From a virus, in the IMG/VR virus record IMGVR_UViG_3300046010_003925, positions 1-24,905 of that record: 24,905 bases of DNA. One strand, given 5' to 3'. Positions 8,388-22,346 of the stretch are shown here, in pieces; position 1 is the stretch's first letter, and the number at the start of each line of letters is the position of its first letter. Below the pieces are notes generated by a model. The model made no database searches. It saw nothing but the letters and a program-made list of their open reading frames with translations, and had not been told where the DNA came from. Made by a program: the position numbers and the translations under genes.

Positions 8388-9140
8388 TTAAAGAGGTTTA
8401 GGTGATAGTTTCTCTACTTCTGAAACATTCCATTTGTAATTGTAACCAGACTTACCAAATCTATTCCAACTGTGATAAAACGAAATTTGCTCACCTTCTA
8501 ATGTCGGAATCCAATCTTTACCATTAGGTCGAGTTTGTAATCCAAGTCGTTCTAAGACGCGATTCATTTCAGCTCCAGAATAACCGAATTTTCTACCTAA
8601 TTCAGTTGGTTCTAGCATCAACACATCTGACGGTATATTGTCTTGTGCAGGAGCTAATTTTAATAGAGGTGTAAAATCAACATTGGTTTCTTTGTAAGTT
8701 AATTTAACACATTCAATCTGAGCCGAGTGAAGTGGTACTTGAAGTAACTGAGCAAACGCTAAATAACCTTCTGCGTAAGGGAGTGCGTCTTTAGGCGTCA
8801 TAGCTATCGCAATAGGTTTTTGTGAAATGAGTTTATTTTCGCACTCGATGAAGTAGTTTCGGTAATCATGAGCATTCTTAGTTTTCGCCATCATCGAAAT
8901 ATGCTTTGCGAAATCTAAAGATACTGCGAAATCACGGGTTTCATTACCGTTCAACTCAAGGTTGAACCCCACCCAATCTTTATTTTCTAAGAAAAATTCG
9001 TTATTAACTATATTCTTTTCAGACCATTTTGACCAAGCCGCTTTTGCTAAACCTAAGCCAATATAAAGCTCTCTAGCTGAAACTGAATTTACTTCTGAAT
9101 TATTGATAGTTTGTTGTACTACAGGGATTAAATCTTTCAT
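8388..9140 (-). CDS. AntA/AntB-type phage antirepressor
   Basis: This 250-residue protein would relieve repression by binding a phage repressor or other regulator. Residues 18-95 match the AntA/AntB N-terminal domain: VSARELY, a K..WS.W segment, DWVGF, and a ..DFA.SLDFAKHISMMAKT.....YR.YFIECE core. Residues 190-250 form a second small domain typical of phage regulatory protein C-termini. The open frame begins at TTG 9179, but AAAGGA precedes ATG 9140, so that start is chosen. The gene has its own promoter with an operator-like inverted repeat and its own terminator, and it lies inside the tail morphogenesis block between two chaperone genes, as expected of a 'moron' cassette. The family is secure; its target is not in the window. 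Confidence 0.88.
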   Translation of the reverse strand: MKDLIPVVQQTINNSEVNSVSARELYIGLGLAKAAWSKWSEKNIVNNEFFLENKDWVGFNLELNGNETRDFAVSLDFAKHISMMAKTKNAHDYRNYFIECENKLISQKPIAIAMTPKDALPYAEGYLAFAQLLQVPLHSAQIECVKLTYKETNVDFTPLLKLAPAQDNIPSDVLMLEPTELGRKFGYSGAEMNRVLERLGLQTRPNGKDWIPTLEGEQISFYHSWNRFGKSGYNYKWNVSEVEKLSPKPL

Positions 9141-16207: not shown

Positions 16208-17206
16208 TTAGAATTCGCGTGTTACCAAAGCTAACATTGGAACTTGTTTGCTTTCTGGATACACTCGTGACCAGTTACCAGCAGTTGCTAATGCAGTCGC
16301 ACTTGCACCACCGATAGTCGTTGTACCAGCATACGAATGACCAATAGGTGCAATCGCTAATTCGATACGACTGTAAAGTGTTTCTAAGCCTGAACCTGTA
16401 CCCATTGATGGGTCGCGGAATACTTCAGTTGGAACTTTAGGCGAACCCATACCTAATTGAACTGCGCCATCGCCTAAGATGTAGGATGTGAACACACCTG
16501 CTGCATTAGGTAAGCCGTCATCATAGACTACTTTGAAGCCCATGTAGTACGCTACGTTAGTGTTCAAATCAGAATTCAATTGGAATGTGATTAAGTTTTG
16601 TTCCAACATTTTGAAATACACTTGTGAGTGAACATACAAGGTAGATAAGCTACCGAATGCGTCACCTTTTTTAGCAAGTGTGTTCAAGAACCATTTTGGT
16701 TGGAAATCAGTTGTACCTGCCACATAAGATGCGCCAGATTTATCGACAATCATGTCAGATGAGTTAGATGCTGCGTTAGCTGCAAACACACCTTTCAATG
16801 CTTGGACAACCAAGTATTGTGTGTTAATAGCCCAAAAATTAGATACACGACCTAAGATAGCTTGTACAGGGTCAGCTCCAGCCAAATCACCAGCCAAGTC
16901 ATAAACTGACCATGATTTGTTGCGCGACATACGATGAACAACTGCTTGCAATGAACCCAATTTAGCAGCAGTTGAAGTAGTTGTATCGTCAGTTGCTACG
17001 TTAGAATCGATAACTGAACCGTCATTGATGTCTTTAAACGCAGGTAAAGTAACGATATTGCCGCCACCCGCTAAGAAGTTATCTAAGAACGCAGAACGCT
17101 GTACAGCACCTGCTTGAATGAGTTTGCTTTTTTGAGCAGTTAAGACTTGTGTATATGCGGTAAAACTCTGTGGGACAATAATGTCTGAAATTTGTGTAGC
17201 TGCCAT
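16208..17206 (-). CDS. Major capsid protein (Gp13-like family)
   Basis: The 332 residues begin MAATQISDIIVPQSFTAYT, followed by KSKLIQAGAVQ, LAGGGNIVTLPAFKDIND and VVHRMSRNKSWSVYDLAG. This is the opening of Gp13-like phage major capsid proteins, which adopt the HK97 fold. YILGDGAVQLGMG and the C-terminal ELAIAPIGHSYAG segment also fit. No N-terminal delta domain is obvious, and a separate scaffold-like gene lies upstream, so a separate scaffold is likely. AAAGGA lies before the ATG. The gene has its own promoter and a terminator upstream of it, indicating independently set high expression. Confidence 0.92.
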   Translation of the reverse strand: MAATQISDIIVPQSFTAYTQVLTAQKSKLIQAGAVQRSAFLDNFLAGGGNIVTLPAFKDINDGSVIDSNVATDDTTTSTAAKLGSLQAVVHRMSRNKSWSVYDLAGDLAGADPVQAILGRVSNFWAINTQYLVVQALKGVFAANAASNSSDMIVDKSGASYVAGTTDFQPKWFLNTLAKKGDAFGSLSTLYVHSQVYFKMLEQNLITFQLNSDLNTNVAYYMGFKVVYDDGLPNAAGVFTSYILGDGAVQLGMGSPKVPTEVFRDPSMGTGSGLETLYSRIELAIAPIGHSYAGTTTIGGASATALATAGNWSRVYPESKQVPMLALVTREF

Positions 17207-17312: not shown

Positions 17313-17341
17313 ACTGTACAGGAATTTGAATAAAAAGTCAA
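17313..17341 (-). promoter_or_regulatory. Promoter of the major capsid unit
   Basis: TTGACT (17341-17336) and TACAGT (17318-17313) have a 17-bp spacer. The leader to the capsid ATG is about 100 nt and holds three copies of AATCAC (minus strand) near 17237, 17266 and 17288. The promoter follows a terminator directly, resetting transcription before the capsid gene. Confidence 0.75.
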
Positions 17342-17387
17342 GCACTATTTTAACGATAAGTCAAATTTATTTTTGATAGGTAAAAAG

Positions 17388-17419
17388 AAACCCTTAATGA
17401 GATACCTCAGAAAGGGTTT
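17388..17419 (-). terminator. Terminator of the portal-scaffold unit
   Basis: Arms AAACCCTT and AAGGGTTT enclose a TGAG/CTCA inner helix. On the minus strand TCTTTTT follows. It lies about 185 nt past the scaffold stop, beyond the three-hairpin region, and just upstream of the capsid promoter. Confidence 0.85.
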
Positions 17420-17460
17420 TAGAGTAGGAGTAATAAAATGAAACACACATCAAACAAACC

Positions 17461-17595
17461 GAAGTTTTAAAAGTAATCTATATTATAAATCACTTTTAAA
17501 ACTTCCTAATACGAGGATATTGTACTAGGAAGTTTGTTGCATTATAACTGGAGAAGTTATGAAACGAGGATATTGTCACATAATTCTAGTTATAA
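17461..17595 (-). ncRNA. Tandem three-hairpin element in the scaffold 3' region
   Basis: Hairpin 1 (17461-17505) has perfect 14-bp arms; hairpin 2 (17499-17535) has perfect 10-bp arms; hairpin 3 (17542-17595) has 17 pairs with two small bulges. All have 17-nt loops. The loops of 2 and 3 share ACGAGGATATTGT (plus strand). Hairpins 1 and 2 overlap by 7 nt. The element begins 8 nt after the scaffold stop and lies before the terminator, so in the minus-strand reading it is a 3' untranslated region; a separate small RNA or a DNA-level protein site is equally possible. The structure is seen directly; the function is unknown. Confidence 0.6.
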
Positions 17596-17603
17596 GTAAA
17601 GAA

Positions 17604-18404
17604 TTATTTTCTATTCTGAGAAGCAGCTGCTTTTTGTAACTGAGCAGCTAATGCAGGGTTTTCACGCTCGATACGCATTTGTTCTGTCACATTACCGTTT
17701 ACACCACCGATGTAAGGATTGTTACCTTGATACATTTGTGCGCTAGAACCTCTTGCTCCACCACCGATATTATCGCCCCAATAATGAGGGTTCATCGCTT
17801 GTTGTTCACTCAACCACACATCAAAAGGTAAATAACCCACCACACCTGCAACGTCATTCTTCGTTAGGAATTTACCGTCCTCAGCTTCCACAAATAATCG
17901 TTCTGCTTTAAGCATGACTGTTTCTTCAAATCTAGGGTCAATTTTAGCCGCTTTAATTTTAGCAGTAAACTCATCGTTCATTCTACGAGTACGGTCTAAT
18001 TCTTCGTATCGCTTTACTTGTTGTTCAATCACAGAAAGTTGTTTGACTAATTGGTCACGTTCAGCGGTAATAGGTTGTAATTTAGCATTCGCTCTCGCAT
18101 TCGCCATAGCATCTAATTTACTATCATCAATAGCAGAACCTTTAGCGAGTTCTTCTAATTCAGTAATTCGAGCTAATTGCGTCTTAATTGCGTCAGGGTC
18201 TAAATCACCGTAAGCTGCTAATTTTTGTTTAGCTGCTTTAGTATCGTTGCGTTCTTTTTCTAACGCACCATATACTTTATTAAATTCTGATAACGGTTTA
18301 ATTCCTTCCACTTCCAACACAAATTTATCACCTGTTTGTACATACAAATTGTGAAGGTTCGCGTCTAATTCTTCTAAGCTATCGATTTCGTATTTTAAAG
18401 CCAT
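17604..18404 (-). CDS. Scaffolding-like protein
   Basis: This 266-residue protein begins MALKYEIDSLEELDANLHNLY with VLEVEGIKPLSEFNKV, an opening seen in phage scaffold genes. It continues as a highly charged coiled coil (residues 45-155: ALEKERNDTKAAKQKL, ITELEELA, QLSVIEQQVKRYEELDR). The C-terminus is Gly/Asn/Gln-rich, then a short basic helix (LAAQLQKAAASQNRK), as expected for a capsid-binding tail. The location between portal and capsid is the usual scaffold position. AAGGAAA precedes the ATG, and only 12 nt separate it from the portal stop. Confidence 0.85.
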   Translation of the reverse strand: MALKYEIDSLEELDANLHNLYVQTGDKFVLEVEGIKPLSEFNKVYGALEKERNDTKAAKQKLAAYGDLDPDAIKTQLARITELEELAKGSAIDDSKLDAMANARANAKLQPITAERDQLVKQLSVIEQQVKRYEELDRTRRMNDEFTAKIKAAKIDPRFEETVMLKAERLFVEAEDGKFLTKNDVAGVVGYLPFDVWLSEQQAMNPHYWGDNIGGGARGSSAQMYQGNNPYIGGVNGNVTEQMRIERENPALAAQLQKAAASQNRK

Positions 18405-21254: not shown

Positions 21255-22346
21255 TTAACCGTGATTTGAAAATTCACCGTGTAATTCGGTAGATGCTTTG
21301 CAGTAGGCAGCGTGAGCAAGTTCGGGTGTGTCGTGATAGCCTAACCATTTAGACTTATTATCAAATCTAATAGTTGCTTGCCATTTATCTACTTTTTTAC
21401 TCCAAGTAACTCCTTTAAATCCAGAAGTATTATTAGCTGATTTTCCTCTATTTCTTGAATTTTCAAGATAAGATGATATTCTCAGATTTTCAATTCTATT
21501 ATCTAAAGCATCACCGTTTATATGGTCGATTATTTCGGCTTCTGTTGGCTTTTCACCACTGTGTAACCACCATACAAGTCTATTTAACCTTTGTGGCTTA
21601 TATGCTAATTTTACTCCCCAATATCCGTTTAGTAAATAACCAGCCTTCTTTCCAGACCACATTGAGTTCCACGCATTAGCTCCGCTTGCATTTTTGAAAT
21701 GGTGGTCAGGTCTGTTTTTCCAATATAAAAAACCAGTATCTCTCTCGTAAACAAAACATTCTTTTAGATATTGTAAAGTTAATTCAACATCATTAACAAT
21801 CTCTTTTGCTTCAAGATAATCATAACGATGTCTATTTTCTTCAGCATCCAATCTCGCTAATTTGGCTTCTTCAATGGTATCAAATACTCCTAAGTTAATC
21901 ATGTTATTCTTGATAGTCAAGAAGGCTTTCCATTTACCACTTTTAGTAACACTAACTCCAATCTCACCAGAAGTATTTCTGCTAGACGCTCGATTTTGAC
22001 CGTTTTCAGCAGATGTAACATCTCTTAAATTCTCAATTCGATTATTAGTTTTATCTCTATCAATGTGGTCGATTATGCCTTCTGGGTCTGCTCCAGTGTG
22101 AAGTTTCCAGATTGTTCTATGATTTAAATATCTAACGTCACCAATATCAAAGTATTTATAACCGCTAGTATAAGTAGAACCTACTTCTTTACCTGGATAA
22201 TGTTTATTAAATATATTCATCGAGCGTTCTGATTTAAAATGTTCTAAAGGTCGTTCTTTCCATAATAAAGAACCAGTTTCAGCACAGTAAGTGAACATTT
22301 CATTTAATAATTTTAAATCTGGCAAAGGTGTTATTTTGTTTTTCAT
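21255..22346 (-). CDS. Tandem double HNH-AP2 homing endonuclease
   Basis: This 363-residue protein is an internal duplication. Copy 1 (about 12-178) and copy 2 (about 191-360) each begin with a GxLxWK.RP.xHFK segment, then an HNH core (IIDHID with His94 and NNRIENLR; IIDHIN with His275 and LDNRIENLR), then an AP2-type DNA-binding domain (NTSGEIGVSV..KWKAFLTI; NTSGFKGVTW..KWQATIRF). Most free-standing phage relatives have one copy. The HR before the core in copy 1 (His76) is NR in copy 2 (Asn255). Such enzymes cut specific DNA sites and spread between phages. It has its own promoter, whose -35 overlaps the terL stop, and weak GAGAT before the ATG. HNH proteins can also assist terminase, but the AP2 domains favour homing. 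Confidence 0.9.
   Translation of the reverse strand: MKNKITPLPDLKLLNEMFTYCAETGSLLWKERPLEHFKSERSMNIFNKHYPGKEVGSTYTSGYKYFDIGDVRYLNHRTIWKLHTGADPEGIIDHIDRDKTNNRIENLRDVTSAENGQNRASSRNTSGEIGVSVTKSGKWKAFLTIKNNMINLGVFDTIEEAKLARLDAEENRHRYDYLEAKEIVNDVELTLQYLKECFVYERDTGFLYWKNRPDHHFKNASGANAWNSMWSGKKAGYLLNGYWGVKLAYKPQRLNRLVWWLHSGEKPTEAEIIDHINGDALDNRIENLRISSYLENSRNRGKSANNTSGFKGVTWSKKVDKWQATIRFDNKSKWLGYHDTPELAHAAYCKASTELHGEFSNHG

Follow-up and report, generated by a model that had tools for sequence, protein, structure and literature searches.

A putative small-RNA gene between the scaffold and capsid genes of a tailed phage, with predicted unpaired segments complementary to ribosome-binding sites

The stretch of DNA analyzed here (the window; 24,905 nucleotides, IMG/VR record IMGVR_UViG_3300046010_003925) represents a tailed-phage contig with its head genes on the minus strand; an HNH endonuclease with an AP2 domain is encoded at 21255-22346 (minus). 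The scaffold and capsid genes are separated by a gap of 397 nt that contains a region of hairpins, described in an earlier note, made from the sequence alone, as three successive stem-loops. These hairpins are parts of a larger minus-strand unit (about 17600-17382), on the strand of the head genes, that looks like a small-RNA gene of the phage, with a promoter after the scaffold stop codon, a structured RNA and an intrinsic terminator (Table 1).

Table 1. Features of the scaffold-capsid region, listed along the minus strand. Anti-start-site elements combine CUCC, an anti-Shine-Dalgarno sequence, with CAU, the anti-start codon.
Feature	Position	Strand	Remarks
Portal gene	19889-18417	minus	
Head scaffolding protein gene	17604..18404	minus	phrog_206; upstream neighbor of the RNA unit
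Predicted small-RNA promoter	17572..17600	minus	-35 TTTACT (17600-17595), 17-nt spacer, extended -10 TGT-GACAAT (17580-17572)
Predicted small RNA	17382..17565	minus	about 184 nt; inferred from promoter and terminator, start placed 7 nt past the -10 box
Anti-start-site element 1	17545..17565	minus	CAU (17561-17559), 5 nt, CUCC (17553-17550); loop of a small 5' hairpin
Hairpin 3	17542..17595	minus	loop holds the promoter's -10 box and start region
Hairpin 2	17499..17535	minus	loop ACAAUAUCCUCGU (17523-17511) with CCUC, the complement of GAGG
Hairpin 1, AU-rich	17461..17505	minus	extended by G.U pairs on the minus strand
Anti-start-site element 2	17421..17450	minus	UUUCAU (CAU 17440-17438), 7 nt, CUCC (17430-17427); linker before the terminator
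Intrinsic terminator	17382..17419	minus	AAACCCTT..AAGGGTTT, then CTTTTT
Separate capsid promoter	17313..17341	minus	TTGACT-17-TACAGT
Major head (capsid) protein gene	16208..17206	minus	phrog_247; downstream neighbor of the RNA unit

The order of the unit recurs across the modules of related phages: the scaffold stop codon is followed by a TTGACA-type -35 box, 17 nt and an extended -10 box, then in most modules by a first anti-start-site element, one to three hairpins, a further element in the linker, an intrinsic terminator and the capsid gene's own promoter. In L179 and L166 only the last element has CAU. The predicted RNAs are structured and about 130-225 nt long. A predicted sigma70-type promoter with an extended -10 box (TGn) lies directly past the scaffold stop codon, at the same place, in all eight modules compared; seven match the consensus in at least 10 of 12 positions, the window's promoter in only 8 of 12. 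The call is supported by similar promoters upstream of other genes in these phages. On the opposite strand, promoter-like sites of 10/12 occur in three of the eight gaps (L058, L183 and L185), and only in the related pair L183/L185 do their positions agree. A terminator hairpin with a T-run is likewise at the same place in all eight modules; a simple terminator scan did not flag the window's copy and picked hairpin 1 instead.

The inverted repeats of all three hairpins are present, and the region folds better than its shuffles on both the minus strand (17380-17603, z -7.26) and the plus strand (17455-17603, z -5.59); when the same stretch is folded on both strands, the minus strand reaches -45.2 kcal/mol vs -40.6 for the plus strand. 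The three hairpins of the earlier note are thus real as repeats and as a fold, but they belong to the minus strand, opposite to the one that was read. The loops of exactly 17 nt did not hold up, as that length was set by where pairing stopped: when the minus strand is folded, hairpin 1 pairs over 21 bp and leaves a loop of 3 nt, and the loops of hairpins 2 and 3 shrink to 9 nt. The seven bases 17499-17505 belong to both hairpin 1 and hairpin 2, so that the two full stems are mutually exclusive.

The note had also pointed to a motif common to the loops of hairpins 2 and 3, and this is correct: the 13-mer ACGAGGATATTGT occurs in two exact copies, at 17511-17523 and 17564-17576. A repeat of 13 nt arises in 3 of 5000 sequences obtained by shuffling 17461-17595, and in 14 of 2000 when the whole gap is shuffled. 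The motif is peculiar to the window's phage, being absent from the modules of all 12 relatives (13 modules compared), where the closest sequences have 4 to 6 mismatches. A scan of viral contigs with the 15-mer TACAATATCCTCGTA gave 55 loci, none with a related portal gene and only one, L006, with a related capsid or scaffold gene; L006 is the same phage as the window. Hairpin 3 would require a transcript that continues from the scaffold gene, and would form in no other. Since dyads around a -10 box are found elsewhere in these phages, at G001 46522 with a T-run behind the dyad, hairpin 3 is best read as the 3' end structure, or a terminator-like structure, of such read-through mRNA, whose loop contains the next promoter. 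If so, the shared 13-mer would be the -10 and start region in hairpin 3 and the CCUC-bearing loop in hairpin 2. At the place of hairpin 2, a hairpin with a CUCC-bearing loop exists in L058, L250, L183 and L185, and no such equivalent was found in L071, L166 or L179.

Relatives were found through searches with the capsid and scaffold proteins. An element of the same plan lies in the same gap of L058 and L059 (capsid identity to the window 84%), L071 (59%), L179 (58%), L166 and L174 (47-48%), L250 (found by its scaffold, 63%), L258 and L264, and in nine of the 11 loci from L183 to L193 (53-55%), L186 and L192 having too little upstream DNA. It is missing from the scaffold-capsid gaps of L072 and L194/L195. 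For a uniform count we took the 142 loci with a capsid hit, set aside 7 that were too short and 21 duplicate or reversed ones, and kept 114 distinct upstream regions. The element occurs in 11 of these, several of them close variants, which are 11 of the 13 regions with a capsid identity of at least 47%, and in none of the regions below that value; 94 regions have neither feature, and nine have one CAT-CTCC and no promoter. The window's phage (L060) fails the strict promoter cut and was counted via its two CAT-CTCC elements. Among named phages, a DNA search with the gap found nothing beyond matches of about 30 nt (E about 0.4), and the seven gaps examined are all short; bacterial genomes yielded one capsid relative, at 34% identity. 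As far as these sequences indicate, the unit is confined to one subclade. In L072 a gene for a Tad2-like (Thoeris anti-defense) protein (L072:2344-2772) and in L199 an ORF with a sub-threshold HNH match (L199:2153-2785) take the place of the RNA, so that the gap seems to serve as a site for accessory genes.

The capsid gene's 5' leader (17297-17250, minus, in the window) has features of its own. CATGGG is present in 82 of 118 distinct leaders vs 5.8 in mononucleotide shuffles, CATGG occurs at least twice in 56 of the 118, and in 75 of them it lies in the loop of a stem with at least 4 bp, a count made without a control. In L064, L198, L213 and L223, inspected by eye, a terminator-like hairpin directly past the promoter contains a first CATGGG copy or a variant thereof. 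From these sequences, the CATGGG leader element is a candidate for capsid autoregulation or attenuation; the leaders of the window, L062, L063 and L064 have no Rfam match. In five of seven leaders (the window at 17245-17228, minus; L058, L071, L179 and L166; not L183 or L185) a mini-ORF of 5-6 codons lies just upstream of the capsid Shine-Dalgarno sequence, the peptides being MNTIT, MNKKLI, MNKQLI, MNKQLI and MNKSIN.

What the modules share is not the loop motif but, in the predicted folds, unpaired CUCC, usually with CAU at the spacing of a start site. The eight modules contain 21 CUCC vs 4.65 in shuffles, and in 16 of the 21 sites a CAU lies 4-10 nt upstream. The combined pattern of CAU, spacer and CUCC has 17 matches vs 0.47 expected, a number reached by none of 500 shuffles; here the eight modules represent about six lineages, and the pattern was defined after inspection of the same sequences. 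The CUCC are predicted to be unpaired with a mean probability of 0.85 (20 sites) vs 0.40 for all C and G positions. The unit likely yields a small phage RNA in which one to three segments are antisense to ribosome-binding sites.

Support for a conserved RNA structure comes from compensatory pairs in relatives. In the L183/L185 group (an alignment of seven sequences, with the structure drawn from L185), the AU-rich hairpin has four variable pairs, all of which are kept, two through double changes and two through G.U pairs that form on the minus strand. The cells with double changes in this group exceed all 500 shuffles, the pairs with double changes do not (2 vs 1.8); in three of the seven sequences one pair of the 5' hairpin no longer forms. 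Between L058 and L250, six pairs are changed on both sides, four of them in the promoter-spanning dyad equivalent to hairpin 3, and the AU-rich hairpin loses two pairs; with these two sequences only, the result is matched by 7 of 500 column shuffles, and pairing is destroyed when the partners are slid. Of the two features that the earlier note proposed to look for in relatives, compensatory changes in the stems are found, but the loop motif is not kept. As to the strand, the G.U pairs in these alignments favor minus. The folding energy of the minus strand is lower than that of the plus strand in all eight modules, and relative to the shuffle mean it is favored in seven of the eight, with single z values of -0.48 to -2.05; in L183 the difference runs the opposite way (z +0.53), and in L183 and L250 the z on the other strand is equal or better.

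The start sites that such an RNA might reach were taken from a simple purpose-made ORF caller. Genes for primase, helicase, DNA polymerase and ribonucleotide reductase lie opposite to the head genes in the L058 contig, and we took their strand as the early one there and, by analogy, in the L166 contig. GGAG is found at 29 of 70 early-strand start sites vs 13 of 57 late ones (p 0.037), and at 26 of 49 vs 13 of 41 in a stricter set (p 0.055). Eight of nine elements pair better with early- than with late-strand starts of these two long contigs (p<0.05, uncorrected), the exception being element 1 of L071 (p 0.08); reversed queries show a smaller difference in the same direction, and any anti-Shine-Dalgarno sequence pairs with start sites. 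In genome-wide matching, the 13 best non-self matches include 6 on predicted starts for the first L058 element, but only 2 for the second L058 element and 2 for the L166 element; the window contig has few early-strand genes, and its elements give 0 of 13 and 2 of 13. This matching revealed no single dominant mRNA target, and a lineage-specific matching of elements to start sites was not seen. The scaffold and capsid start sites themselves are poor pairing partners in three of the four genomes examined, ranking 61/64 and 43/64 in the L058 contig, 34/63 and 58/63 in L166 and 18/23 and 17/23 in the window, as against 8/36 and 15/36 in L189.

We propose, with a confidence slightly better than even, that the phage has a small-RNA gene here, whose product acts in trans on start sites, with the phage's own early-strand genes as the likeliest targets. 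Its predicted single-stranded segments, which read CAU-(4-10 nt)-CUCC and so are the complement of a ribosome-binding site with its start codon, would block ribosome entry by pairing with mRNAs at the Shine-Dalgarno sequence and the start codon. Early-strand genes are the likeliest targets because their start sites pair better than late-strand ones, and early translation would thereby be turned down; host mRNAs may also be targets. A small phage RNA was among the roles suggested in the earlier note, and it is the one that the predicted promoter, terminator and covarying stems support well. More tentatively, and on balance doubtfully, the RNA may be multi-headed and antisense to the consensus start site (Shine-Dalgarno and AUG at the right spacing), not to one gene, so that a single late-operon transcript would turn down the early genes as a class.

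The small RNA might instead be aimed at host mRNAs or at a host defense pathway, in which case the site would be a slot for accessory genes, as the Tad2-like gene and the HNH-like ORF that replace the RNA in L072 and L199 would suggest. This differs from the reading we prefer only in the target, and we consider it unlikely, because the elements look like complements of early start sites in the phages themselves.

One point speaks against the proposed small RNA: the complement of every element is a ribosome-binding site with ATG. On the plus strand there could be between one and three tiny genes, each with a strong ribosome-binding site, of which CAU-CUCC would be merely the complement. All eight modules have a Shine-Dalgarno sequence and ATG at start spacing on that strand; the peptides of L071 (MKTKNKTNNNES) and L179 (MKTRTNKRNES) are alike, and the first residues of one plus-strand ORF are kept between L183 and L185. 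Moreover, AGGAGG-N4-9-ATGA occurs in four of 11 records, once each and always at the RNA locus, vs three of 11 for a reversed control pattern. However, no plus-strand promoter occupies a common place across the modules, the ORFs have 2 to 46 codons and otherwise unrelated peptides, 5 of the 21 plus-strand GGAG sites lack an ATG, the frame of the last element's ORF is broken by indels between L183 and L185, and the G.U pairs favor the minus strand. We therefore judge tiny plus-strand genes to be quite improbable.

It is distinctly improbable, too, that the gap is only a boundary between a terminator and a promoter, with no regulatory RNA and a structure that stabilizes the end of the scaffold mRNA. 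Dyads do span the -10 box at other promoters of these phages (G001 46522, window 9280), and hairpin 1 itself scores as terminator-like, but a mere boundary leaves unexplained both the enriched unpaired CUCC with CAU and the presence of hairpins 1 and 2 together. Hardly credible are protein-binding 3' UTR hairpins that tune scaffold:capsid output, as suggested in the earlier note, even though two loops have a 13-nt motif in common: that motif is absent from all 12 relatives' modules, in which the stems and the unpaired CUCC are kept, the capsid gene is set apart by a terminator and a promoter of its own, and the scaffold and capsid start sites rank low as partners except in L189. A DNA site for a packaging or recombination protein, also raised there, is not supported, as the stem arms covary instead of staying conserved.

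Among known systems, bacterial small RNAs with C-rich loops, such as staphylococcal RNAIII and RsaE, use unpaired UCCC or CUCC to pair with Shine-Dalgarno sequences; unlike these, the present element lies in a phage head-gene operon and adds CAU at the spacing of a start codon. Protein-binding hairpins of the phage coat operator type keep the loop sequence on variable stems, and here none of the 12 relatives' modules comes within three mismatches of the motif. The c4 RNA of phages P1 and P7 adjoins the antirepressor operon that it controls, whereas the neighbors of our unit are the scaffold and capsid genes. An AntA-type gene lies at 8388-9140, and upstream of it, at 9280-9140 (minus), we note another strong promoter of the extended -10 type, its -10 box enclosed in a long dyad. 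In working principle c4 is nonetheless the closest relative that we found described: it is an antisense RNA acting on the antirepressor (ant) mRNA, phage-encoded and with segments, likely in loops, complementary to the region of a ribosome-binding site (PMC12197685). Complementarity of this kind in unpaired segments is also what the folds predict here; our unit differs in having several elements of differing sequence, another genome position and no Rfam match. Indeed, as the earlier note had stated, no named RNA family is recognizable: no Rfam family reaches its gathering score, and permissive scans give weak, mutually unrelated hits, none of them named c4.

As late phage RNAs, the closest are sRNA1 and sRNA2 of Pseudomonas phage PAK_P3, which are small, intergenic and about 100 nt long, and for which the authors hypothesize an action in trans (PMC4933390). 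They belong to another phage and another site, and the passages on them mention no repeated anti-start-site elements (PMC4933390). According to the same 2016 paper, descriptions of phage-encoded small RNAs were still few and came mostly from prophages; from a virulent phage, only those of T4 were known at the time, and their function was not (PMC4933390). Among the titles and abstract openings found in searches of the open-access literature for phage small RNAs, none describes such an element.

If a class of start sites is indeed repressed through repeated elements of one RNA, this would provide a direct and testable means of shifting translation from early to late genes in these phages. In that case, CAU, a spacer and CUCC in unpaired positions would also be a signature by which other such RNAs may be found.
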